A stretch of DNA of 21,064 bases from a virus. The stretch spans positions 1 through 21,064 of IMG/VR virus record IMGVR_UViG_3300025383_000126; one strand, given 5' to 3'. Positions 595 through 15,607 of the stretch are shown piece by piece. The first letter of the stretch is position 1; every line of letters begins with the position of its first letter. The position numbers and the translations under genes were made by a program. Below the pieces are notes generated by a model. It did not search any database. It saw nothing but the letters and a program-made list of their open reading frames with translations, and was not told where the DNA came from.

Positions 595-756
595 ATGGCT
601 AAGAAGGCAGCCCCTAAAAAGGGTAAGGTGGAAAAGGTAATGGCCGAATACAAGGCTGGAACTTTGCACTCTGGATCAAAGACTGGTCCAGTAGTGACAT
701 CTCGCCGCCAAGCCTTGGCCATCGGAATTAGCGAAGCAAAGAAGGTTAATAAGTAA
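595..756 (+). CDS. Small basic protein, DUF6496-like
   Basis: A 53-residue protein with a lysine-rich start (MAKKAAPKKGK). A compact conserved-looking core follows: KVMAEYKAGTLHSGSKTG, then VTSRRQALAIGISEAKK. This matches from memory the pattern of the DUF6496 family (KVM-E-K-G-L-SGS..., then QA-AI-SEA-K) found in phages and bacteria; a profile search was not possible. Its role is unknown. A GAAAGG site lies about seven bases before the ATG at 595, and the gene follows the acidic protein by 12 bases. Its stop codon lies inside the 5' arm of a strong hairpin (753-791). It is the first gene of the tiny basic-protein run. Confidence 0.85.
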   Translation: MAKKAAPKKGKVEKVMAEYKAGTLHSGSKTGPVVTSRRQALAIGISEAKKVNK

Positions 757-791
757 GTGGTGTTATCTAAGTTACAACCCGCACCACTTAC
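753..791 (+). promoter_or_regulatory. 10-bp perfect intercistronic hairpin
   Basis: gtaagtggtg (753-762) and caccacttac (782-791) are exact reverse complements, with a 19-base loop. The 5' arm contains the TAA of the preceding gene. No T-run follows, so it does not look like a rho-independent terminator. It may be an mRNA processing or stabilising structure between the first and second tiny genes. Confidence 0.6.
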
Positions 792-819
792 GTATCCTAA
801 TGGAGGTGGATTAAAAACC

Positions 820-954
820 ATGGCAAATAAGAAGCCAGAATCACATAGGCTAGAAGTAGAAGCCCTTGCTAAAAAGCATGAGGCTGAGATGGCTAAACTC
901 AAAGAGAAACATGCCAAGATGACTGCACCTATGGGGGCAAAAAAGAATGGCTAA
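820..954 (+). CDS. Small charged helical protein
   Basis: A 44-residue protein (MANKKPESHRLEVEAL...). Residues 10-35 are a heptad-like run of Glu, Lys, Ala, Leu and His, expected to be one long charged helix or coiled coil; the end is GAKKNG. The start was placed at the ATG at 820 because GGAGG lies just upstream (802-806) and the protein then begins MANKK like its neighbours. An in-frame GTG at 757 would add 21 unrelated residues and fall in the hairpin arm. The end overlaps the next gene by eight bases, implying coupled translation. No family was recognised. Confidence 0.8.
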   Translation: MANKKPESHRLEVEALAKKHEAEMAKLKEKHAKMTAPMGAKKNG

Positions 955-1141
955 GACCATCAAGATTAAAGGCGAAGGCCATACAATTAAGAAGAACAAA
1001 AAGGGCGATGTCATTGTTGACCATGCAGGTAACAAGGGCAAGTATGACAAAATTGACCTAACCAAGAAGACAAAGGGTAAAGTCAAGACCATCGACCAAG
1101 GCGTAAAAGCCACTAAAGATTGGCATAAGAAAAATGGCTAA
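947..1141 (+). CDS. Small lysine-rich protein (KIKGEGHTIKK type)
   Basis: A 64-residue, strongly basic protein. The sequence reads MAKTIKIKGEGHTIKKNKKG, then DVIVDHAGNKGKYDKIDL, then a lysine-rich end with TIDQGVKATKDWHKKNG. The beta-strand-like start and DVIVDH motif suggest a small folded unit rather than pure disorder. Similar short proteins occur in other environmental phages as far as I recall, but I know no function. It overlaps both neighbours by eight bases, and its ribosome binding region lies inside the preceding gene. A nucleic-acid or DNA-packaging role is possible from charge alone, which is weak evidence. Confidence 0.85.
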   Translation: MAKTIKIKGEGHTIKKNKKGDVIVDHAGNKGKYDKIDLTKKTKGKVKTIDQGVKATKDWHKKNG

Positions 1142-1298
1142 AGCAAAGTTAGGTTCAGGAGCCCGCTTCAAGAAAGTTGAAGAAGAGGCAAAGAAGTCTG
1201 GTGCTAAGAATCCTGCTGCAGTTGCAGCGGCTGCTGGCATGAAGAAATATGGTAAGGCTAAAATGGAGAAGATGGCGCAGGCTGGAAAGAAGAAGTAA
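1134..1298 (+). CDS. Small basic Ala/Lys-rich protein
   Basis: A 54-residue protein (MAKAKLGSGARFKK...) with a central alanine run (NPAAVAAAAGMKKYG) and a lysine-rich end (MAQAGKKK). The pattern of a short amphipathic helix, an Ala-rich hinge and a second helix ending in GKKK resembles small phage and bacterial proteins that recur in such arrays. It starts eight bases before the previous gene's stop, so it is probably coupled. It is too short for many gene callers, but fits the frame, spacing and style of the run. Function is unknown; the Ala/Lys composition recalls H1-like DNA-binding tails, which is only an analogy. Confidence 0.8.
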   Translation: MAKAKLGSGARFKKVEEEAKKSGAKNPAAVAAAAGMKKYGKAKMEKMAQAGKKK

Positions 1299-1299
1299 C

Positions 1300-1602
1300 A
1301 TGGCTAAAACACCAGCATGGCAAAGATCTGAAGGACAAAATAAAAAAGGCGGATTAAACGCCAAAGGTCGTGCATCTCTTAAAGCGCAGGGTCACGATAT
1401 TAAGGCTCCTGTAAAAAAAGGTGACAATCCTCGTCGTGCATCATTCCTGGCTCGCATGGGCGGAATGCCAGGTCCAGAGCGCAAGCCTAATGGTGAGCCA
1501 ACACGTTTGCTATTATCTCTTCAGGCTTGGGGTGCATCCTCAAAGGCTGATGCCAAAAGCAAAGCAGCCGCTATCTCAAAGAGGAATAAAAATGGCAAGT
1601 AA
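1300..1602 (+). CDS. Small basic protein, DUF6321-like
   Basis: A 100-residue protein, the largest of the run. Visible blocks are WQRSEGQNKKGGLNAKGRAS at residues 6-25, NPRRASFLARMGGMPGPE near 43-60, and NGEPTRLLLSLQAWGASS near 63-80. A lysine-rich tail follows. These blocks match my memory of the DUF6321 family of phage proteins (EGKN-GGLNAKGRAS; NPRR-SF-ARM-GM-GP; PTR-LSL-AWG). The ATG at 1300 was chosen because the family begins close to the WQR motif; an upstream in-frame ATG at 1249 lies wholly inside the preceding gene. It begins one base after that gene's stop. No enzymatic role is known to me. Confidence 0.88.
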   Translation: MAKTPAWQRSEGQNKKGGLNAKGRASLKAQGHDIKAPVKKGDNPRRASFLARMGGMPGPERKPNGEPTRLLLSLQAWGASSKADAKSKAAAISKRNKNGK

Positions 1603-1738
1603 GAAGACAGACCCTTGTTGGGATGGCTACACTCAAGTTGGTATGAAGATGAAGAATGGTAAGAAAGTACCGAACTGTGTTCCAGATCGTTCTGGCAGGA
1701 TTCCAAACTCAAAACCTAGAAAGAAAGTGAGCAAGTAG
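1592..1738 (+). CDS. Small basic protein with CWDGY and NCVP motifs
   Basis: A 48-residue protein. DPCWDGYTQVGMKMKNGKK is followed by VPNCVPDRS and a basic end (KPRKKVSK). The two cysteines (C9, C29) flank a short beta-hairpin-like unit. The same CWDGY-QVGMK-KNGK-VPNCVP pattern is familiar from short proteins and protein tails of marine and freshwater phages, but its function is unknown to me. The ATG at 1592 overlaps the preceding gene by 11 bases and is preceded by AGGAAT. The stop abuts the next gene's ATG directly. Confidence 0.87.
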   Translation: MASKKTDPCWDGYTQVGMKMKNGKKVPNCVPDRSGRIPNSKPRKKVSK

Positions 1739-1846
1739 ATGTGTCTCAAGTGTGGTTGTGGCTGTGCCAAGGGCAAGCCAGCAAAAGGATGTAAGTGCAC
1801 CTGTGCATCATGCAAGGCTGCTCGTGCTTCTAAGAAGGCCAAGTAA
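1739..1846 (+). CDS. Cysteine-rich 35-aa microprotein (metal-binding candidate)
   Basis: A 35-residue ORF beginning MCLKCGCGCAKG and continuing GCKCTCASCKAARASKKAK. It holds eight cysteines (positions 2, 5, 7, 9, 18, 20, 22 and 25), mostly as CxC or CxxC, in its first 25 residues, followed by a basic tail. The spacing resembles a small metallothionein or a compact zinc-cluster module. The ATG follows the previous TAG without a gap, and its TAA overlaps the next ATG by one base (TAATG). That perfect fit in the operon is the main support for it being a gene. Metal binding is inferred from cysteine density. Confidence 0.78.
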   Translation: MCLKCGCGCAKGKPAKGCKCTCASCKAARASKKAK

Positions 1847-2004
1847 TGGCTGACGGTCTATCTCCTAAGCAGAAGAAGATCGCTGCTATGGGCGGTAATC
1901 CAAAGAAGATTGATGCTGCAGATTTTGCTGCTCTCCGTAAGGGCAAGAAAGCGTCAGCGCCTAAAAATCCTAAGATGATTACCAATCGTAAGAAGGGCAT
2001 GTAA
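1846..2004 (+). CDS. Small basic protein (MADGLSPKQKKIAAMGG type)
   Basis: A 52-residue lysine-rich protein. MADGLSPKQKKIAAMGGNP is followed by KKIDAADFAALRKGKK and a basic end with NPKMITNRKKGM. The SPKQKKIAAMGGNP-KID-ADF-LRK layout is like short proteins seen in other phages' small-gene arrays; no function is known to me. It is joined to both neighbours by TAATG overlaps, so translation is probably coupled. It shares an SPKQK motif with the next gene (SPKQKAAFEKAD), which may mean a common origin or a common binding surface. Confidence 0.82.
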   Translation: MADGLSPKQKKIAAMGGNPKKIDAADFAALRKGKKASAPKNPKMITNRKKGM

Positions 2005-2183
2005 TGGCTAAAAAGATGTCAGATGCTGCTCAAGATGCCAAGGTAATGAAGGGTATGTCTCCAAAGCAAAAGGCGGCCTTTGAAAAGGCTGACAAGAAGA
2101 TGGATAAGAAGAAGCCATCTCGTGCAGCGGATGAAAAGATGGACAAGGCTCTAGCCAAGAAGATCAAGAAAGAAAAGAAGTAA
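2004..2183 (+). CDS. Small basic helical protein, last of the array
   Basis: A 59-residue protein made almost entirely of Lys, Ala, Met, Asp and Glu: MAKKMSDAAQDAKVMKGMSP, then KQKAAFEKADKKMDKKKPSR, ending AKKIKKEKK. It is expected to form charged helices. It begins at a TAATG overlap with the previous gene and ends six bases before a strong terminator, so it closes the tiny-gene unit. It shares the SPKQK motif with its upstream neighbour. Function is unknown; nucleic-acid binding is only suggested by charge. Confidence 0.82.
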   Translation: MAKKMSDAAQDAKVMKGMSPKQKAAFEKADKKMDKKKPSRAADEKMDKALAKKIKKEKK

Positions 2184-2188
2184 GACTT

Positions 2189-2216
2189 AGCCCCACGAAA
2201 GTGGGGCTTTTTCTTT
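2189..2216 (+). terminator. Rho-independent terminator
   Basis: agccccac (2189-2196) and gtggggct (2201-2208) form a perfect 8-bp GC-rich stem closed by a GAAA tetraloop. TTTTTCTTT follows immediately. It sits six bases after the stop of the last tiny gene and separates that unit from the tail operon. Confidence 0.93.
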
Positions 2217-2228
2217 ATCATTGCAACA

Positions 2229-2252
2229 TCAGGTAACCGCTGCGGTTCCTGA
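2229..2252 (+). promoter_or_regulatory. Stable hairpin in leader of the tail genes
   Basis: tcagg (2229-2233) pairs with cctga (2248-2252), and aaccg (2235-2239) with cggtt (2243-2247). This leaves one bulged T and a CTG loop. No T-run follows. It lies between the terminator and the first gene of the next unit, where an operator or mRNA leader structure would be expected; aaccgctgcggtt is also a 13-bp odd palindrome. The role is not shown. Confidence 0.5.
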
Positions 2253-2286
2253 CCACTGTTCCCGCAGGTTGCGAAAAGGGGTTGTG

Positions 2287-2460
2287 ATGGCACATAAGCC
2301 ATGGTACGAACAAGTTGCTGAAATGAACAATCAGCATGAACGTGAAGAGTTCATGCGGGGTATGTTCGGCTTTCGTCCTAAAGAAAAACAGCCAATCTTC
2401 GCAGCACTACTCGCAGGTTATATCGGCGGTAAAGTTGCGAAGGGCAAAAAGAAGAAGTGA
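2287..2460 (+). CDS. Small hypothetical protein with Gly/Ala hydrophobic tail
   Basis: A 57-residue protein. MAHKPWYEQVAEMNNQHERE begins a charged helical half, followed by FMRGMFGFRPKEKQ. A hydrophobic stretch near residues 38-49 (PIFAALLAGYIGG) then precedes the basic end KVAKGKKKK. The start was placed at the ATG at 2287, preceded by AAAAGGGG; an in-frame TTG at 2221 lies within the leader hairpin region and is unlikely. It is the first gene after the terminator and overlaps the next gene by four bases. The hydrophobic segment is too short for a confident membrane span. No family was recognised. Confidence 0.78.
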   Translation: MAHKPWYEQVAEMNNQHEREEFMRGMFGFRPKEKQPIFAALLAGYIGGKVAKGKKKK

Positions 2461-3473: not shown

Positions 3474-5012
3474 ATGACTTACGGTCGTCCAGGTGTCTAC
3501 CTAACAGAGACACTACTTCCAGCACCTCTCGCACAGGGAGTTGCCACAAGTGCTGCTGGTGCAGTTGCTGCGCCATTTGCACAAGGTCCTGAGATTGTGA
3601 CTCGCGTTCAATCTTGGACAGAATTTACATCAAAGTTTGGTGGCTACAACGCTGCATTCCCTGCAGTCTTTGGCGTCGCTCAATTCTTTAATAACGGTGG
3701 ACGTGAACTCTACGTCAAGCGCATCCTTCACAGTGATGCCGCAGCCGCTACAGTCTCAGTAGAGACATCAGGCAATGCAGTAGTTGCTACCTTTACAGCA
3801 AAGAACCGTGGTGCAGATGGCAACAACCTCCGCATCAATGTCAAGGCTGGAACAGTTGCAAGCACCTACACAGTTGAGGTCTATAAAGAGGGTGTTGCAG
3901 GAACTGCGATGAACATCACCAACGATGTACTTCTAGAGCGCTACGAAAACCTCGTATTCTCAGATCCAACATCATCAAGTTATGCTGGAACTGTCATTAA
4001 CAATACTGCAGGCTCTTCAGTCACAGTAAGCGCGTTGGCTTCAGGTACACCTGTTCTTACAGTCTATCCACTCACAGGTGGAGCAGATGGATCAGCAGTT
4101 GTTGCTGGAGACTTCACATCGTATGCAGCAACAAGTGCATCAGTGTGGAATGAGTTCTCATCCCTTAATCGTGCTCTCGTTATGTTTATCCCACAGATCA
4201 ACGACATCCTTGTCTCTGGTCAAGTTGGCGTTATCAACGATGCAATCTCATGGGCGCAGTCAAACAATGGCTTCTTTGTTGCAGAAACTCCTGCTGGAAA
4301 GTCAGCAGATGAAGCAATCGTTTACGCACAGGGTTTGACAGCAAGCAGCAATGCCGCTGTCTACTATCCAAATACTTACATTGCTGATCCAATTGGTCGT
4401 GGTAGCGGAGCAATTCGTTTGATCGGTCCATCTGCAGCAGTTGCTGGCTTGTACTTGAACACCGATGCTACACGCAGCGTGGCCAAGGCTCCAGCAGGTA
4501 TGAACTTCCCTCTTGCTGGTGTTATCTCCGTAGAAAAAGCATTTACCTCTACAGAACTTGATAACCTAAATCTAGGCTTGCCTACAGCAGGCACTGGTTC
4601 AGTTGCTCCAGTCAACGCCATCCGTCAACTTCCAGGTGCTGGAATTGTTGTCATGGGTGCTCGTACACTTCTTCAAGATGGAACAGCAAACAAGTATGTC
4701 AACATGCGCCGTTCACTCATCTACGTTGAGCAGAACTTAAAGAACATCGCACAGTTTGCAGTCTTTGAGAATAACGATGAACGTCTATGGGCTCGTATTA
4801 CAAGCACATTTAGTTCATTCCTTAATGACTACCGTAATCAGGGTGGACTTCGTGGTGGAACCCCAGCCCAGTCTTATTACGTTCTCTGCAACGCAACAAA
4901 CAACACAGCATCATCTATTCAAAACGGTATAGTCAACATCCAAGTTGGCGTTGCCCTTGAATATCCTGCTGAGTTCGTAGTAATCAACCTCAGTCAAATG
5001 ACCATGGCGTAA
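3474..5012 (+). CDS. Contractile tail sheath protein
   Basis: A 512-residue protein, within the usual sheath range. It opens with the typical YGRPGVYLTE start. It continues with a domain holding FAQGPEIVTRVQSWTEFTSK (residues 36-55) and FFNNGGRELYVKRI, the hallmark of the sheath N-terminal region. A beta-rich insert spans about 90-210. The C-terminal sheath core includes VMGARTLLQDGTANKYVNMR, then LRGGTPAQSYYVLCNATNNT and YPAEFVVINL. Sheath subunits surround the tube and contract to drive it through the host envelope. It has a strong AGGAGA site and rather uniform codons (many AAC, ATC, TTC), as expected for a protein made in many copies. The tube gene follows after 18 bases. Confidence 0.95.
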   Translation: MTYGRPGVYLTETLLPAPLAQGVATSAAGAVAAPFAQGPEIVTRVQSWTEFTSKFGGYNAAFPAVFGVAQFFNNGGRELYVKRILHSDAAAATVSVETSGNAVVATFTAKNRGADGNNLRINVKAGTVASTYTVEVYKEGVAGTAMNITNDVLLERYENLVFSDPTSSSYAGTVINNTAGSSVTVSALASGTPVLTVYPLTGGADGSAVVAGDFTSYAATSASVWNEFSSLNRALVMFIPQINDILVSGQVGVINDAISWAQSNNGFFVAETPAGKSADEAIVYAQGLTASSNAAVYYPNTYIADPIGRGSGAIRLIGPSAAVAGLYLNTDATRSVAKAPAGMNFPLAGVISVEKAFTSTELDNLNLGLPTAGTGSVAPVNAIRQLPGAGIVVMGARTLLQDGTANKYVNMRRSLIYVEQNLKNIAQFAVFENNDERLWARITSTFSSFLNDYRNQGGLRGGTPAQSYYVLCNATNNTASSIQNGIVNIQVGVALEYPAEFVVINLSQMTMA

Positions 5013-5030: not shown

Positions 5031-5747
5031 ATGCCAACAATTAATAATAACCGATCATCGCTTGCGACCGATCCGTTACGCAACTTTAGGTACCTAGTTA
5101 CCTTCACACCACTTACAAATGTTAATGGAACAGCAAACACTAACACGGCTATGACTAACCTTGCTACGCCTCCAGTATCATTTGGTTTTACCTCTATCTC
5201 AGGAATGTCTATCACAACTGATTCAATTCCTTACCGTGAGGGTGGTTACAACACCACCGTTCACCAGATCCCTGGTCAGACAACTTTTGCTCCAATCACA
5301 TTCCAGCGTGGAGTGATCCTTGGAACAAGCACCAACTGGGACTGGATGAAGAACCTCTTCGCCACAGTTCAAGGTGGAGGATCGTCTCGCGCTGCGGGAG
5401 ATAACTTCCGTTGCGATATCGAGATCAAGGTATTGGCTCACCCAGTTCCAACAGGTGCAGTAGTAGATGCAACTGGCGGCACACCTGCAACACAGTCAGC
5501 AACTGACGTTGTTGCGATGCGCTTCATGGTCTACAACGCATGGCCAACATCTGTCTCATACTCAGATCTCAACGCTGGTGACAACGCGCTGCTCGTAGAG
5601 CAGATGTCTGTTGTTCACGAAGGCTTTGATATCTCATGGGGAGATAAAGTAAGTGAGTCTGCTGACCCATTTGGTACAGGACCAGGAACATCAGCAGCAA
5701 CTAAGAACACTGGTAACGGTGGCGTAGGCGCTGCACTTTCTCAGTAA
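5031..5747 (+). CDS. Tail tube protein (gp19-like)
   Basis: A 238-residue protein directly after the sheath. Diagnostic blocks are DPLRNFRYLVTFTPL (residues 15-29), the conserved SGMSITTDSIPYREGGYNTT with HQIPGQTTFAPITFQRGV (about 58-96), and a tryptophan-rich WDWMKNLF helix. A C-terminal block has MRFMVYNAWPTSVSYSDLNA and VEQMSVVHEGFDI. These match the T4 gp19-type tube family, whose subunits stack as hexameric rings. The C-terminal 35 residues are Gly/Ser/Thr-rich and probably flexible. An AAGGAG site precedes the ATG. The sheath-tube-chaperone-tape measure order is the standard myovirus layout. Confidence 0.93.
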   Translation: MPTINNNRSSLATDPLRNFRYLVTFTPLTNVNGTANTNTAMTNLATPPVSFGFTSISGMSITTDSIPYREGGYNTTVHQIPGQTTFAPITFQRGVILGTSTNWDWMKNLFATVQGGGSSRAAGDNFRCDIEIKVLAHPVPTGAVVDATGGTPATQSATDVVAMRFMVYNAWPTSVSYSDLNAGDNALLVEQMSVVHEGFDISWGDKVSESADPFGTGPGTSAATKNTGNGGVGAALSQ

Positions 5748-5766: not shown

Positions 5767-6576
5767 ATGTCGCAAACAATTAGTGCAGTCTCTAATCCAG
5801 ACTTGGCAAACAACTTAGTGAAAGACGCTCTTAAAGAGGTCTCTACAGAACTAGAACCAACAATAGTTCCTCCTTCGGATACAACTGTACAACTTCCTGG
5901 CGGTTACATTACAACCGCTGGGGAGTTGCTACAGACCGCAGAGGTTCGAGAGTTAACTGGTCGAGATGAGGAAGCAATTTCTAAGGCCTCTAACGTTGGA
6001 AAAGCCCTTCTAACTATCTTAGAACGTGGAACCGTCAAAGTTGGAGACTTAAAGGCTGATGACAAGATTCTTGATCACATGCTTACAGGTGACCGTGAGG
6101 CAATTCTTCTAGGAATCCTTAAGGCAACGTTTGGAACAACTACAGATATGTCAATTTTCTGTGGTGGTTGCAATGACTTTAAGAATGTAACTGTAGATAT
6201 CAACGAAGATATCAAGACAAAGATTCTTACAGATCCTATTGGAGACAGAATTTTTACAGTCAGCGGTAAGGCTGGAGATATTGAGGTACAACTTCCAACT
6301 GGAATCGCCCAAAAAGAATTGATCAATAATGCAGATAAAACTCCTGCAGAGATGAACACAATTCTTCTTGAGAAGACAGTCTTGAAGATTAACAACTCAC
6401 CCGTCTACAGCAAGATCCAGGTTCAGAACCTACCTGTTGTAGATCGCAAAAAGATTATTGAAGAGATCAATCAGCGTGTTCCTGGTCCACAATTTGATGA
6501 TGTGACTATGGAATGCCCAGATTGTGGAAGTGAGGTAACGATATCCATTAACTTGGGTACGTTGTTTCAGTTCTAA
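5767..6576 (+). CDS. Tail/baseplate assembly chaperone, zinc-ribbon type (T4 gp26-like)
   Basis: A 269-residue protein between tube and tape measure, where tail assembly chaperones lie. The N-terminal third has LPGGYITTAGELLQTAEVRE followed by LTGRDEEAISKA, a block I associate with the T4-baseplate (gp26-like) family of myovirus assembly factors. Two CxxC pairs, C132/C135 (CGGC) and C250/C253 (CPDC), would together hold one zinc ion, closing a large beta-rich insert into a ribbon. The ending NLGTLFQF is followed by a TAA. A second ORF in the +1 frame overlaps its last codons and has the look of the chaperone's extension. An AAAGGA site lies before the ATG. Confidence 0.8.
   Translation: MSQTISAVSNPDLANNLVKDALKEVSTELEPTIVPPSDTTVQLPGGYITTAGELLQTAEVRELTGRDEEAISKASNVGKALLTILERGTVKVGDLKADDKILDHMLTGDREAILLGILKATFGTTTDMSIFCGGCNDFKNVTVDINEDIKTKILTDPIGDRIFTVSGKAGDIEVQLPTGIAQKELINNADKTPAEMNTILLEKTVLKINNSPVYSKIQVQNLPVVDRKKIIEEINQRVPGPQFDDVTMECPDCGSEVTISINLGTLFQF
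6565..6568 (+). promoter_or_regulatory. Candidate +1 frameshift site (TTT C)
   Basis: Within the 35-base window where both chaperone frames are open (6539-6573), ttt-c is the only codon that can re-pair fully after a +1 slip (UUU to UUC, both Phe). It lies three codons before the TAA stop. The proposed junction is ...GTLF-SSNIVPYVQLF. This is a sequence-based proposal without experimental support. Confidence 0.45.
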
Positions 6577-6580
6577 CATA

Positions 6581-6733
6581 GTGCCGTATGTTCAGTTGTT
6601 TGCTGAATGGGCGGCCATATCGGAGATATACGGTAGTTGGACATTGACTGAGATCAAGGAGATGTCCTCTAGAGAAAGAAAGAATTGGCTAGAACTAGCC
6701 AAGGCAAGAGCGATAAGGAGTCCAGATGGCTAG
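6581..6733 (+). CDS. Second tail-chaperone ORF, probably expressed by +1 frameshift or coupling
   Basis: The +1 frame relative to the preceding chaperone is open from 6539 to the TAG at 6731-6733. From GTG 6581 it encodes 50 residues: VPYVQLFAEWAAISEIYGSW, then TLTEIKEMSSRERKNWLELA, then KARAIRSPDG. The 'W....SEI...W...EI--M---ER--WL-LA' pattern is that of the short second chaperone ORF of many phages. No ribosome binding site precedes GTG 6581. A slippery TTT-C (6565-6568, ttg ttt cag) would let Phe-tRNA slip +1 from UUU to UUC and fuse both ORFs; alternatively, ribosomes may restart at the GTG four bases after the stop. It overlaps the tape measure start by eight bases. Confidence 0.75.
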   Translation: MPYVQLFAEWAAISEIYGSWTLTEIKEMSSRERKNWLELAKARAIRSPDG

Positions 6734-9407
6734 TATGGTGACAAGCGTCAAGTCACTTAACGACGCCCTAAAAGACACGCTCAAAACTCTCAACGAGATC
6801 AATGACACGATCAAGCATATTTCTGCTCCTGCTCAAACAGCAGCAGACTCTATGCGCAAAACCATTACAAAAAATGGTCAAAGAAATCTAACCAAGGGTA
6901 GCAAAGTTGCCCTAGGTACAGACGGTGCCAACTTTACACAGGCTGGTGGTGCTTCTGCAGAAAGTAGAGTTCCTGCTTCTCAACCACAATCTGCTGCACA
7001 GGCTCAAAAGGCAAGCAATGTAAACATGCCATGGATGTCTCCTACTTTGGCAAAGTTCAGCATTGCTGGTGGAGTGGCCCAAGCGGGAGCAGGAGTTGTT
7101 GGTGCAGGTTATGCGCTTGGTCCTGATTTAGGCGCAACAATTTCTCGTGCATCAAACTATTACGCAGTATCTCAATACTCCACAACTGGTCTTGGCTATA
7201 AGCAAATTCAAACTTCTACTTTGGGTGCTTTAGGAAACGGTTTTGGAAGAGGCGTATCAGGGATAGGAGAAGATGCGGCAGCCGCTGCAATTCTTACCCA
7301 ACAGTATGGTTATGCTCCAGGAAGTAGCCCATACCTACAAACTATGCGTGAAGTTGGTGGAGCGTACCGTCAATTTAATCTTGGTAATGCAGCGGCCGCT
7401 CAAGCAATTGGTGGTTTCCAGACTGGAGCAATGGGTGCAAACCTTTACCAATATGGTATTTCTCAGTTTGATAAAAGTGGAAATCCATTATCTGAATCTG
7501 ATATTGCTAAACAACTCTTTAATCGTATTTTTCAAGGACGTGGTCAAGGTAACGTCAAAGGAGTTCAACAATCCTTACAGTACGGACTTGCTGGTGCAGA
7601 CCTTAGCGCTTTAGGATTCTCTGCTGATCAACAACAACTTCTTCGTGCTCAGTTCTTAGCGTTGGCTCAAAACAAAAACGCAGATCTTTCAAAAATGTCT
7701 GGTGCAGGAAACCCAAATGCAGCAGGACAACAGATCATTACATCTCAAACTAATTTGATGCAAGCATCTCAAGACTCTATGATCAAGGGATACCAGGCTG
7801 CTGCAACTACTATTACTGCAGTAAATAAGGAGATGGCACAATTTGGACAATCGGTTATTCAAGCAAAAGCCTACATGCAAGGTCTTGGACAAACTGGTTT
7901 AGGTGGTGCTCTTACCTCTCTTATTGGCGGGTTTACCATGGGAGTAAAGAACATTGCAGAAGGTATGGCGGCCCTTGCTGCTGCTGAAGCAATTGGTATG
8001 CCTCTTGGTAAAGGAGGAACTAAGTTACTAAGTGCTGGACGTGGCGCTCTTTCTTTGATTAAAGGTGCTGCAACTAGGGTAGTTGCTCCTGCTGCAGTTG
8101 GATTAGGGGTTGGCGCTGCAGGAAAACAACTTGGTAAAGCACTGCACGTTAATAGCGGTGTAACACGTGCTGCGTCTGGTTTGGCGGCTGCTGGTGCTGG
8201 TGCTGCAACTGGTGCGGGAATTGGTTCAATATTTGCTCCAGAAACTCTTGGTCTTAGCATTGTTGCTGGTGGAATTATTGGCGGTATTGCTGGACTATTT
8301 AGTGGTGGAAGTTCATACGGAGGTTTTGGCGCATCGTTTGGTGCAAAAGGTGGTGCATACTCTGCAACCCCTGCAAACACCAGTGCTCTTCACCCCAACT
8401 CAGGACAAAGCAATAAACAAACTTTAAGTTCCCCTATTCCTGGAACAGCACCAACAACCATGTATGGTGCTAAAGATCCTGGCATGTGGAATGGAGCAAA
8501 GAACTATCACACAGGTGATGACTACGCTGTTCCTGTAGGAACATCTGTAAAGGCTGTGGCTGATGGTGTTGTCTTTGACGATTCTCCTGGAGCAGATTTT
8601 GGTGTCTATGTACAGATTGACCATGGAAATGGCTATCAAACTTTGTATGGTCACTTACAAAGTAAGTCAGTAAAACTAGGTCAAACAGTTGTTGCTGGTC
8701 AAGAAATTGGTAAATCTGGTCAATCAGGAAATGTTACTGGTCCACACTTACACTTTGAAGTTCGCAAAGGACATAACAATCCAGTAGACCCAGCGTCATT
8801 CTTGACTGGTACAGGTGGAACAAAACAGACTGTATCTGGAAGCACAGTAACTGCTCCTGGAACAATTCTTGGAACAGGAAGTCAACAAGATTGGGCAAAA
8901 CAATTCCTAACAAACTTAGGAAAACCTGTTACAAAACAAAACCTTGCTGCTGTAACAACTTGGATGGCGTTTGAAGGAGGGCAGTGGCATAACTCTGCTC
9001 ACTATAACCCACTTAACACAACACAACCAGCATCAGGTGCTGTAGACATCAACAGTGTTGGCGTAAAATCTTACGCAGATTTTAATCAAGGAATGCAAGC
9101 CACTATTGAAACCATTAATAATGGTCGTTACAAGTCTATTTTAAGCGCTCTCTCTTCAGGGAATAACACTGCAGGAGTATTGCGGGCTGTAAACCACTCT
9201 CCATGGGGAACACATATTCCTGGTTATGGTGGTGGTACATCTGGATTTGGTGCCTCTATGCCGTCTTCTGGACAAGGTGGGTCTACTAATGTTCAAATCA
9301 CAGTGAACATCGCTCAAGCATCGCAAGATGAAGCAGTAAAGTTTGCAAAGAAAGTACAAAGTATTCTTGAAGAAAACAACAGCATCTCTATGATGGGAAC
9401 TAGGTAA
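6726..9407 (+). CDS. Tape measure protein with M23 peptidase and lysozyme-like domains
   Basis: An 893-residue protein with an AAGGAG site. The N-terminal 60 residues are helical; about 110-530 is Ala/Gly/Gln-rich with hydrophobic segments (AAAGLGVGAAGK type), typical of a tape measure that sets tail length. Residues about 575-695 form an M23 metallopeptidase: H595 and D599 in HTGDDYAV, H643 in YGHL, and H674/H676 in PHLHFE, so the zinc and catalytic positions are intact. Residues about 725-830 resemble a lysozyme-like domain of actinophage tail proteins: W746, E750 in WMAFEGG, NPLNTT near 761, GVKSYADFNQG. These enzymes would open peptidoglycan during DNA injection. The end is helical. It overlaps the chaperone extension and joins the next gene through TAATG. 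Confidence 0.93.
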   Translation: MASMVTSVKSLNDALKDTLKTLNEINDTIKHISAPAQTAADSMRKTITKNGQRNLTKGSKVALGTDGANFTQAGGASAESRVPASQPQSAAQAQKASNVNMPWMSPTLAKFSIAGGVAQAGAGVVGAGYALGPDLGATISRASNYYAVSQYSTTGLGYKQIQTSTLGALGNGFGRGVSGIGEDAAAAAILTQQYGYAPGSSPYLQTMREVGGAYRQFNLGNAAAAQAIGGFQTGAMGANLYQYGISQFDKSGNPLSESDIAKQLFNRIFQGRGQGNVKGVQQSLQYGLAGADLSALGFSADQQQLLRAQFLALAQNKNADLSKMSGAGNPNAAGQQIITSQTNLMQASQDSMIKGYQAAATTITAVNKEMAQFGQSVIQAKAYMQGLGQTGLGGALTSLIGGFTMGVKNIAEGMAALAAAEAIGMPLGKGGTKLLSAGRGALSLIKGAATRVVAPAAVGLGVGAAGKQLGKALHVNSGVTRAASGLAAAGAGAATGAGIGSIFAPETLGLSIVAGGIIGGIAGLFSGGSSYGGFGASFGAKGGAYSATPANTSALHPNSGQSNKQTLSSPIPGTAPTTMYGAKDPGMWNGAKNYHTGDDYAVPVGTSVKAVADGVVFDDSPGADFGVYVQIDHGNGYQTLYGHLQSKSVKLGQTVVAGQEIGKSGQSGNVTGPHLHFEVRKGHNNPVDPASFLTGTGGTKQTVSGSTVTAPGTILGTGSQQDWAKQFLTNLGKPVTKQNLAAVTTWMAFEGGQWHNSAHYNPLNTTQPASGAVDINSVGVKSYADFNQGMQATIETINNGRYKSILSALSSGNNTAGVLRAVNHSPWGTHIPGYGGGTSGFGASMPSSGQGGSTNVQITVNIAQASQDEAVKFAKKVQSILEENNSISMMGTR

Positions 9408-12699: not shown

Positions 12700-14450
12700 C
12701 CACACAAATTTCTACAATACCAGTATCAGTTGACTACACTGCTAGAGACTTTTACTCTATTAAAGATAAGTTAATTGCCAGAATACAGGCGCGTATCCCT
12801 AACTGGACTGCCAGTGACCCTGCTGATTTTGGTGTTGCTTTTGTTGAGGCCATGGCTTACATGGGTGACTTGATCTCTTATTACATCGATAGAAATGCAA
12901 ACGAGAACTCTATCTACACCGCTACTCAACGAAACAGCGTTCTCAATATCGCACAGACTTTTGGTTATACGCCAGCAGGTTATCGTCAATCGTATGTAAA
13001 CTTAACTTTCTCTAACTCTGGAGATACTGACCAGATTATCTATGGAGGAACAGTAGTATCAGGGCAAGTCACCACTGGTGATGTTGTACAGACTCTGTAC
13101 TTTACAACTACCTCAGACATAACAGTTGTTGGAGGAAGTTCTAATACTGTACTTGCTAAAGAAGGTCAACTAGTAACTCTAGTTTCCCCAACAGCAATTC
13201 CTACATACGGAGAACTCATTGGTACTTCGGATGGCTCTCCAAACCAAACTTACATGCTCCTTCATTCTCCAGTAGTGGATGGAACGCTATCTCTGTACAT
13301 TCAAGACGGAGATGTGTATTCTCAATGGAACCAAGTTCAGCACATCACTGACTACGGCCCATCTGATTTGGTTTACACCACATCTTTTGACCAAAACGAC
13401 AACTTGTTTGTCACCTTTGGTGATGGTGTTTCAGGTGCTATCCCTGTTCCTTACTCTCAAATCCGTGTGGTCTATACGGTAGGTGGAGGAGATGTTGGAA
13501 ATATTGGTTCTAACATCGCTACAAACATTAGTTATGTTCCAGGACTTACAGACACTCAAGTAACTGCTCTTAAAGGAACCATCACTGTAACTAACGCAAC
13601 TGCTGCTATCGCGGGATCAAACCCAGAAAGCACAGACCAGATTAGAATTTCTGCTCCTGCGTCTTTGCGTGCGGCTAATCGCGCTGTTACATTAAAAGAC
13701 TTTGCTGACCTTGCACTAAGCGTAAACAATGTAGGAAAAGCACAAGCAACTGCTGCTGTTTGGTCTTCTGTCACTCTGTATATTGCCCCAACTAGAAACG
13801 CAGGAACAACAGATCTACAGCCTGGATTAAACTCAGATGGATCTCCATCTGCTGAATACACTACCTTGGCTAACAACGTTTCTACATATATGGCAGATAA
13901 ACTACTTATTGGAAGTTCTCTTAGTGTTCAACCACCTACATATGTAGATGCCGTTCTTTCATTAACATACTCACTTGACCCTAAGTACAAACAATCAGAT
14001 GTAACAAGTTCAATTTTGTCAACTCTATCAACCAAATATGGATACAACGCAGTATCTTTTAAAGAAACTATTTATCCTCAAGATATTGAGGCAGTAGTCA
14101 ACGGTTTAAATGGAGTTAAAACTGCACGAGTAACTGGTTTATACCGTTATGGTGTTCCTATTACATCTGCTGCTGCTTCTGGAACAGCGATTACTTACAC
14201 AACTAGCGCTCCTCATGGATTGAGTGTTGGATCAACTGTTACAGTTACTGGGTTTAGTCCCAGTGGTTACAATGTAACTTCTGCATCAGTTGCAACAGTT
14301 GCTGATTCCACGCACTTTACTGTTGCTAGTACGCAGTCCAGCGGTACTGCTACAGGAACTGGAGCCTTTACTGGGTACTCAACTCTAATAGGATCAGAAA
14401 ACGAAATTTTTAGATTCCAGGTAAGTAACATCAATATTGGAACGATGTAG
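12696..14450 (+). CDS. Baseplate J-like wedge protein with inserted beta domain
   Basis: A 584-residue baseplate J-like protein starting at GTG. The N-terminal block PVSVDYTARDFYSIKDKLIA, then DPADFGVAFVEAMAYMGDLI and SYYIDRNANENSIYTATQRN (residues 8-78), is classic. Mid-protein strands are followed by VTFGDGVSGAIPVPYSQIRV (about 245-265) and a helix with RISAPASLRAANRAVTLKDF (about 320-340). About residues 490-560 hold an extra domain (AITYTTSAPHG, VGSTVTVTGFSPSGYNV) similar to one in the gpI-like protein, placed just before the normal C-terminal strand (LIGSENEIFRF). J-type proteins form the wedge arms of contractile baseplates. The end overlaps the spike gene by one base. Confidence 0.93.
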   Translation: MTTQISTIPVSVDYTARDFYSIKDKLIARIQARIPNWTASDPADFGVAFVEAMAYMGDLISYYIDRNANENSIYTATQRNSVLNIAQTFGYTPAGYRQSYVNLTFSNSGDTDQIIYGGTVVSGQVTTGDVVQTLYFTTTSDITVVGGSSNTVLAKEGQLVTLVSPTAIPTYGELIGTSDGSPNQTYMLLHSPVVDGTLSLYIQDGDVYSQWNQVQHITDYGPSDLVYTTSFDQNDNLFVTFGDGVSGAIPVPYSQIRVVYTVGGGDVGNIGSNIATNISYVPGLTDTQVTALKGTITVTNATAAIAGSNPESTDQIRISAPASLRAANRAVTLKDFADLALSVNNVGKAQATAAVWSSVTLYIAPTRNAGTTDLQPGLNSDGSPSAEYTTLANNVSTYMADKLLIGSSLSVQPPTYVDAVLSLTYSLDPKYKQSDVTSSILSTLSTKYGYNAVSFKETIYPQDIEAVVNGLNGVKTARVTGLYRYGVPITSAAASGTAITYTTSAPHGLSVGSTVTVTGFSPSGYNVTSASVATVADSTHFTVASTQSSGTATGTGAFTGYSTLIGSENEIFRFQVSNINIGTM

Positions 14451-15607
14451 TGGATGATATTAAAAGACATTACGGAATCTATAGAGGAGTTGTTCAAGAT
14501 AACAACGACCCACAAAATCAACGTAGACTTCGTCTGTCAATCCCACAAACCACAGGGTCAGAGGTAACTGACTGGGCTTGGCCTATTGATCCTTCTAACA
14601 CGTCTTTTGACGTACCTGTTATTGGGCAAGGGGTGTGGGTTGCTTACATTGGTGGAGATCCTGAATATCCTATTTGGCTTGGTAGTTTTGGAACAAACCA
14701 AGGTAAAAATAAAAAGTTGTATTTAAAAGCGTTATCAAATGCTACAAGCCTTAACAATATTAACCATGAGATTATTCTTGTAACAAAAAATGACGGAACT
14801 CAAGAAGTAGATGTAACAGCAACATTAATTGCTCTTGCACAAAAAGAGTATTCTTTACAAACAACTTTGTACTCTTTACAAAATACTGTTCAGGGAATTA
14901 TTGCTGGACATGGAATTCAAGGTGTACAGGGAAGTTCTGGCTCTCAAGGTTCGTCAGGAACACAAGGATTACAAGGATCTTTAGGCTCTGGAACTCAAGG
15001 TGTTCAAGGTGCACAGGGAACTATCGGTACTCAAGGTGCAATGGGATCTGGAACGCAGGGATCTCAAGGACTTCAAGGTTTACAGGGTGCTCTTGGAACT
15101 CAAGGACCTTATGGATTGCAAGGCTATCAGGGATCGCAGGGAGTTCAAGGCACTCAAGGTTTTTATGGAACACAAGGTTCTTTGGGAACACAGGGAAGTC
15201 AAGGGTTACAAGGTGCTGTAGGTGCAACAGGTATTACAGGTACCCAAGGAGTTCAGGGTACAGACGGTACCCAGGGCACACAGGGTACAGATGGCGTTCA
15301 AGGCCAACAAGGTACACAGGGCACTCAAGGATTAACTGGAGCAGGAACACAGGGTTCTCAGGGAACACAAGGAAGTGTTGGAAATACTGGTTTACAGGGA
15401 ACTCTAGGAACTACTGGTTCTCAAGGCACGCAAGGCGTTCAAGGAACTCAGGGAAACTCTATCCAAGGAACTCAAGGGGTGCAGGGAGTTCAAGGATTGC
15501 AAGGCGCTATAGGTGTGGGAACTCAGGGTATACAGGGGTCAAGTGGGACATCCTCTGTAGACGTTGGAAATCTTTTTTCAGGGTTATTCTTAATAATGGG
15601 AGGATAA
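14450..15607 (+). CDS. OB-fold spike protein fused to collagen-like repeats
   Basis: A 385-residue protein from GTG 14450, with the TAG of baseplate J sharing one base. Residues 1-85 resemble the gp5/gpV OB-fold that seats the spike on the hub (YRGVVQDNNDPQNQRRLRLS, DWAWPIDPSN, GQGVWVAYIGGDPEYPIWLG). About 120-150 is a heptad-like helix (LIALAQKEYSLQTTLYSLQN) able to nucleate a trimer. About 155-365 is collagen-like Gly-X-Y with Gln very common at Y (GTQ, GVQ, GLQ). Breaks of the type G-X-G precede GTQ four times, and GNSIQG is a one-residue insertion. The end is hydrophobic (VGNLFSGLFLIMGG). A collagen stalk would replace the usual beta-helix, or act as a trimeric fibre. Confidence 0.82.
   Translation: MDDIKRHYGIYRGVVQDNNDPQNQRRLRLSIPQTTGSEVTDWAWPIDPSNTSFDVPVIGQGVWVAYIGGDPEYPIWLGSFGTNQGKNKKLYLKALSNATSLNNINHEIILVTKNDGTQEVDVTATLIALAQKEYSLQTTLYSLQNTVQGIIAGHGIQGVQGSSGSQGSSGTQGLQGSLGSGTQGVQGAQGTIGTQGAMGSGTQGSQGLQGLQGALGTQGPYGLQGYQGSQGVQGTQGFYGTQGSLGTQGSQGLQGAVGATGITGTQGVQGTDGTQGTQGTDGVQGQQGTQGTQGLTGAGTQGSQGTQGSVGNTGLQGTLGTTGSQGTQGVQGTQGNSIQGTQGVQGVQGLQGAIGVGTQGIQGSSGTSSVDVGNLFSGLFLIMGG
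14913..15545 (+). repeat. Collagen-like Gly-X-Gln coding repeats
   Basis: About 630 bases of degenerate 9-base units (ggN-NNN-caa/cag type) encode Gly-X-Y triplets, mostly GTQ, GVQ, GLQ and GSQ. The nucleotide copies differ by synonymous changes, so the tract is old rather than newly duplicated. The interior resists unique alignment and may vary in length among relatives. Confidence 0.88.

Follow-up and report, generated by a model that had tools for sequence, protein, structure and literature searches.

A conserved TTT-C site and predicted +1 frameshifting in phage tail assembly chaperone genes of the T4 gp26/gp51 type

Programmed frameshifting in the genes of tail assembly chaperones is a textbook case and mostly proceeds in the −1 direction. 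In this way phages lambda (G/GT) and P2 (E/E+E′) make two chaperones, one short and one long, from a single gene located ahead of the tape measure gene. T4 carries two separate genes on opposite strands for the PF12322 proteins gp26 and gp51, which is consistent with Vladimirov et al. 2022, where T4-like chaperones are reportedly made without frameshifting. In lambda, the tape measure protein is coated by the short form, and recruitment of the tube is the task of the long one (PMC5009743). Shifts into the +1 frame are rarer, as the original prediction for the locus described here had put it: the PRFect analysis of SEA-PHAGES data lists 350 forward versus 2368 backward positive slippery sites (PMC10885494). 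The Listeria phages PSA, A118 and A500 use +1 frameshifting in structural genes (PMC5009743), but these encode major tail and capsid proteins, not a chaperone, and the ribosome shifts at a proline codon.

That general statement needs context, since a +1 shift at TTT-CGC has already been proposed at the same gene place for HF1-group haloviruses, which are haloarchaeal myoviruses (PMC7230728). This site is the closest precedent for the locus. HF2 and HSTV-2 likewise have two frames between the tube and tape measure genes, we find TTT-CGC near the first stop in both sequences, and the chaperone of HSTV-2 is annotated as a join. Beyond phages, UUU_CGN is the +1 motif of amalgaviruses (PMC5052127) and the +1 site of influenza A PA-X (PMC5009743).

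The DNA analysed here (the window) is an IMG/VR virus record of 21,064 bases. It contains a contractile-tail module comprising a sheath gene (PF17482) and, on the plus strand, the genes considered in the following. A gene for a T4 gp19-like tail tube protein (5031..5747; PF06841, E 5e-24) is located directly upstream of ORF1 (5767..6576), which is followed by ORF2 (6566..6733) and by the tape measure gene with its Peptidase_M23 domain (6726..9407; PF01551, E 3.5e-30). The tape measure gene has its own ribosome binding site, AAGGAG at 6715-6720, and its ATG overlaps the end of ORF2. Two overlapping frames between the tail tube and tape measure genes are the arrangement of a G/GT pair. Two further observations concern other parts of the window. 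A long G-x-Q repeat (GTQGxQG) gives a collagen-like look to a 385-aa protein encoded near the end of the tail module (14450-15607, plus strand), and a series of short Lys- and Ala-rich ORFs, several starting with MAKK or MAK, occupies 595-2460 (plus strand), which is unusual for a structural module.

The original prediction had been made from the sequence of the window and proposed a +1 frameshift joining two chaperone ORFs; its reading of the junction was confirmed except for one point. ORF1 ends at 6576 as described, with the stop codon TAA at 6574-6576. The +1 frame, said to be open from 6539 to 6733, is open from 6539 to 6730 and is closed by TAG at 6731-6733. TTT-C at 6565-6568 (ORF1 frame TTG TTT CAG TTC TAA) had been named as the sole slip site in the shared zone; it is the only +1 homotriplet site there, and two sense codons separate the slip codon from the stop. 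No ribosome binding site was said to precede the second ORF, and we found no Shine-Dalgarno-like sequence ahead of the GTG at 6581. The supposed start of the extension at this GTG (50 aa) has to be revised: the GTG is not conserved, and the sequence reads better from TTC at 6566-6568, which gives a T-like domain of 55 aa with three predicted helices. Taking TTTC as one Phe step, the predicted fusion (5767..6733) is a GT-like long form of 321 aa with the junction ...GTLF-SSNIVPYVQLF...

ORF1 (269 aa), the G-like short form, is a member of PF12322 (T4_baseplate; E 6e-10, 39.6 bits at a cut-off of 24.5) and matches phrog_150 (E 2.7e-10), the family of T4 gp26 and gp51. The PF12322 cut-off is also passed by the relatives L081, L174, L178, L085 and SP-15, while ORF1 of L180 gave no match to PF12322. 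The term gp26-like zinc chaperone, used in the earlier description, agrees with the Pfam score and with the cysteines: both Cys of the first CxxC pair (residues 132-135, 6160..6171) are unchanged throughout alignments of 25 and of 41 ORF1s, and those of the second pair (residues 250-253, 6514..6525) are both invariant in the 25, but only Cys253 in the 41, leaving three of four Cys invariant in the larger set. The kinship of ORF1 to T4 gp26 and gp51 rests on Pfam, since direct comparison of the ORF1 profile with the whole T4 proteins gave a weak result (8-9% probability). The AlphaFold2 model of ORF1 (pLDDT 91.2) has the HK97 tail assembly chaperone 2ob9 as its top PDB match (Foldseek E 0.04, probability 0.99). 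In VIA this pair reached Z 7.0 with an rmsd of 3.2 over 83 of 269 residues, the next row having Z 3.4; a Z of 7 is possible without kinship, and the likeness to the HK97 chaperone is credible because of the position of the gene. When compared with predicted viral proteins, the model best matched a T4-like baseplate hub assembly protein (E 7e-21).

Similarity to ORF1 was the sole criterion for gathering relatives, and the search peptides all lay outside the slip site and the junction. Sources were three viral-contig scans (the best 80 loci of more in each), GTDB genomes (nine loci) and named phages. At least 259 loci with an ORF1 stop yielded 172 distinct complete junctions, and 163 after nine distant ones (L085 and L178-L185) had been set aside before counting; these are described separately below. 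Four loci with ORF1 running off the contig end (L043, L075, L189, L259) and five with incomplete ORF2 were dropped. The loci in all junction counts are related by descent and hence phylogenetically non-independent.

An alignment of relatives had been suggested as a check on TTT-C, and the slip site proved to be kept: 162 of the 163 distinct junctions have TTT-C in frame, and one (L263) has TTT-T. One relative (L001) has a junction identical to that of the window and the same open +1 frame. A looser clustering with 66 representatives (pairwise identity 28-72%, median 38%) gave 65 with TTT-C and one with TTT-T. The distance from the slip codon to the ORF1 stop is 2 sense codons in 107 junctions, 3 in 49, and 1, 5, 6 or 7 in the remaining 7. 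Across 102 junctions with two-codon spacing the four bases of the site are identical in all 102, whereas neighbouring third positions vary. The last upstream stop in the +1 frame is located no more than 8 nt from TTT in 51 of the 163, which leaves only a few codons at the end of ORF1 for the shift. The open zone contains two or more +1 homotriplets in 66/163 junctions.

Codon choice around the site points in the same direction. The codon ahead of TTT encodes Leu in 152/163, and most relatives carry TTG-TTT-C, TTA-TTT-C or CTG-TTT-C (115 junctions counted). The codon after TTT encodes Arg (80), Gln (62), Leu (17), Pro (3) or Phe (1), and its first base is C in 162 of 163. All 80 Arg codons at this position are CGN, although AGR accounts for 422 of 2099 Arg codons elsewhere in those ORF1s; likewise, all 17 Leu codons are CTN, with TTR making up 1160 of 4538 Leu codons elsewhere. 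TTC accounts for 528 of the 982 other Phe codons in these ORF1s. In ORF1s of more than 58% GC the site is TTT-C in 45/45, but TTT is used for only 9 of 296 other Phe codons (3%); for the GC-rich (>58%) cluster representatives the numbers are 23/23 at the site versus 6/119 elsewhere. Since the C is kept while the encoded residue varies, and TTT is kept despite GC-rich codon usage, we regard the site as a signal in the nucleotide sequence rather than a motif of the protein. It is a conserved slip site at which the P-site tRNA can re-pair at +1. The UUU_CGN sites of amalgaviruses and PA-X share the tetranucleotide and often the type of the next codon, but they belong to eukaryotic RNA viruses and unrelated proteins, and the phage site also precedes CAR, CTN and CCN. 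As a separate observation, the ORF1s of the 163 junctions rarely have an in-frame TTT ahead of a C at other places (17 of 445), while C opens 8701 of 41832 other codons in these genes; TTT-C looks as if avoided off-site.

Programmed +1 frameshifting at UUU-C, giving predicted short and long chaperones of the G/GT type, is very probably the best explanation for these data: the slip site is conserved, there is no common start codon for the second ORF, and the extension is under selection. The anticodon of tRNA-Phe is GAA. The occurrence of slippage, its frequency and its role in assembly are what we infer. Most ribosomes would terminate at the TAA (6574-6576), yielding the 269-aa short form. A smaller share would shift one base forward with tRNA-Phe on UUU in the P site, re-pairing with UUC (6566-6568), and continued translation in the +1 frame would result in the 321-aa fusion. 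The tail assembly chaperone would thus have ORF1 as its N-terminal domain, extended at the C-terminus by ORF2. By analogy to the G/GT pair of lambda, a large number of short and a small number of long chaperones may assemble on the tape measure protein, the short form coating it and the long form recruiting the tube protein. UUU_Ynn is especially prone to +1 shifting in bacteria (PMC5009743).

We looked for elements that could stimulate the shift. An SD-like sequence within 20 nt upstream of the site is absent in 118/163 junctions. Downstream folding is only mildly above that of shuffled sequences (mean z −0.91, 23/100 below −2) and has no fixed place, and the segment 80 nt further on folds more strongly (mean z −1.61). 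In the window a hairpin follows the site (−19.2 kcal/mol, z −2.28), with the hairpins of relatives located elsewhere. The A-site codon is rarer than the +1 codon in no consistent way (75 loci versus 74, 14 equal). None of the three features, SD-like sequence, structure or rare A-site codon, is conserved. Stimulators help but are not obligatory, and none is evident for PA-X (PMC5009743). The efficiency of the shift may be low, as no stimulator was found, and this would suit a G/GT ratio.

ORF2 could also be translated as a separate small protein that begins just past the ORF1 stop, at the GTG at 6581 in the window, through re-initiation or translational coupling. A possible start codon is present in 58 of 115 junctions, including that of the window, and GenBank has a separate CDS at this place for LuckySocke, BRock, GiJojo and Alone3. 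The other 57 of the 115 junctions have no ATG, GTG or TTG before the conserved Trp in the +1 frame, however, and in the 58 the place of the start varies (L085 and L170, 2 of the 115, gave no Trp motif, and for them the scan covered the entire frame). The GTG at 6581 is not preceded by an SD, and re-initiation leaves both the invariant TTT-C and the use of TTT in GC-rich genomes unexplained. We therefore regard this route as improbable.

Other ways to reach or encode the fusion are less likely still. A −2 shift, as in Mu, ends in the same frame as a +1 shift, and some −2 re-pairing site is present in the open zone of 53/163 junctions. By the first-two-positions rule, however, there is none in the window and none in 110/163, and those found differ between loci, making a −2 shift very unlikely. 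Slippage of RNA polymerase, adding or removing a base so that part of the mRNA encodes the fusion, is plausible for one relative from a Lysobacter MAG (L178), which has nine Ts at the site. For the window, with a run of only three Ts, and for most relatives, with TTG, TTA or CTG ahead of TTT-C, we give it equally little credit.

Programmed +1 frameshifting implies that the downstream frame is a protein-coding sequence, and the +1 frame is indeed under protein-level selection. Its pN/pS is 0.23 over 276 pairs, compared to 1.66 and 1.04 for the other frames and 0.31 for the ORF1 control in its own frame. In 99 gap-free aligned relatives (126 nt) the +1 frame has no stop in 99/99, while the other frames have stops in 99/99 and 96/99. 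The open +1 frame is far from chance. In 54 aligned ORF2 members Trp25, Arg36, Glu37, Arg38 and Trp41 show little or no variation. Relatives with a good ribosome binding site ahead of the second ORF and no conserved slip site, or loss of the second ORF by neutral decay, had been named as observations that would speak against the frameshift; the relatives instead keep the slip site, share no start codon and show a purifying pN/pS. That ORF2 is short and its copy in the window has no family match might suggest an accidental or decaying frame, but the pN/pS, the absence of stops and the nearly invariant Trp and RER motif make this extremely unlikely.

The AlphaFold2 model of ORF2 has a mean pLDDT of 84.9, with helices at residues 5-21, 27-31 and 35-51. 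ORF2 of the window itself has no family match at E up to 1 (Pfam, phrog). The ORF2 profile matched P2 E′ in hhalign (score 27.6, E 2e-5), a score reached by 0/100 shuffles; P2 E′ was the top of 171 frames tested, the next best having 15.5. P2 E′ is a PF06528 (Phage P2 GpE) protein (E 2e-22) annotated as the −1-frameshift extension of gene E, and through it the extension is related to a known T-type extension. The cut-off of PF06528 is not reached by ORF2: the window copy gave no match, and of ten members three scored 12.7-14.2 bits against 23 and seven gave none. At E up to 5, 11 of the 54 ORF2 members are listed, the best with 0.00045. ORF2 is thus a P2 E′ relative by profile and not a PF06528 member, because single members stay below the Pfam cut-off. 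P2 E itself is PF10109, unlike ORF1. Lambda T showed no similarity to ORF2 (11/60 shuffles reach its score). T4 gp51 has about 48 residues past the shared domain, at the place of the ORF2 extension, and this tail gave a weak match to ORF2 (score 15.9, 0/100 shuffles, best unrelated frame 15.5). HSTV-2 differs in its proteins: its ORF1 has no Pfam match at E up to 1, and its +1 part scored 13.1 against ORF2, a value reached by 2/60 shuffles.

The distant relatives extend this picture. L178 (ORF1 at 4001-4699) has a PF12322 gene in which TTT-C is absent, and an extension follows in the −1 frame. This extension matches ORF2 (hhalign probability 88.8%, 0/60 shuffles), and the nine Ts possibly cause slippage of the transcript or of the ribosome. 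The extension is kept although the route of access has changed, as selection for the fusion predicts. Six other distant phages also have an open +1 frame after a PF12322-like ORF that carries TTT-C or TTT-T in frame close to its stop: Bacillus phage SP-15, Flavobacterium phage immuto, Listeria phage LIS04, Microcystis phage Mel-JY01, Streptococcus phage GXN1 and the jumbo phage LR756508. Atu_ph07 showed no clear pattern. By profile comparison with shuffles, the extensions of these distant phages show no clear kinship to ORF2, and for the +1 extensions of L085, L179, L180, L182 and L184 the likeness does not go beyond shuffles. Borderline likeness was obtained for L185 (1/60 shuffles) and for L181 and L183 (0/60 each, low probability). 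L183, jumbo phage LR756511, has a PF12322-like gene followed by a possible −1-frame extension, which is the borderline profile match.

A large group of phages, most of them unannotated, shares this arrangement. The site is present in the Streptomyces phages LuckySocke, Alone3, BRock, GiJojo and pSt2308, whose GenBank records do not join the two frames in one CDS, and the pSt2308 record is without a second CDS. A look-up of terms in the accessible text of the genome papers of GiJojo (PMC11465772) and BRock (PMC7453282) gave no frameshift. In a literature search covering mostly papers available without subscription, we found none that deals with +1 shifting in the PF12322-type chaperones of phages infecting bacteria. 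As an aside, the record of phage Mu (L269, 22000-28000) has only the first chaperone frame annotated and no joined CDS for its −2 shift.

The predicted shift stands out by its +1 direction and by a site of the simplest possible kind without evident stimulator, in a T4 gp26/gp51-type protein not expected to frameshift. Annotators can now join a gene pair that was left split or half missed in the five Streptomyces phages examined, and the relatives provide a large natural alignment for studying how UUU-C works in bacteria. The finding also links the chaperones of T4, P2 and HK97. As a tentative suggestion, to which we give less than even weight, a UUU-Y +1 shift may be the general route to the long form of PF12322-type chaperones in phages of Actinobacteria, Cyanobacteria, Bacteroidota and Bacillota. 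It would have given way now and then to a −1 shift (Lysobacter MAG, LR756511) and, in T4, to the paralogues gp26 (short) and gp51 (long); the same tetranucleotide in the chaperones of archaeal myoviruses would then be either ancestral or a striking convergence.
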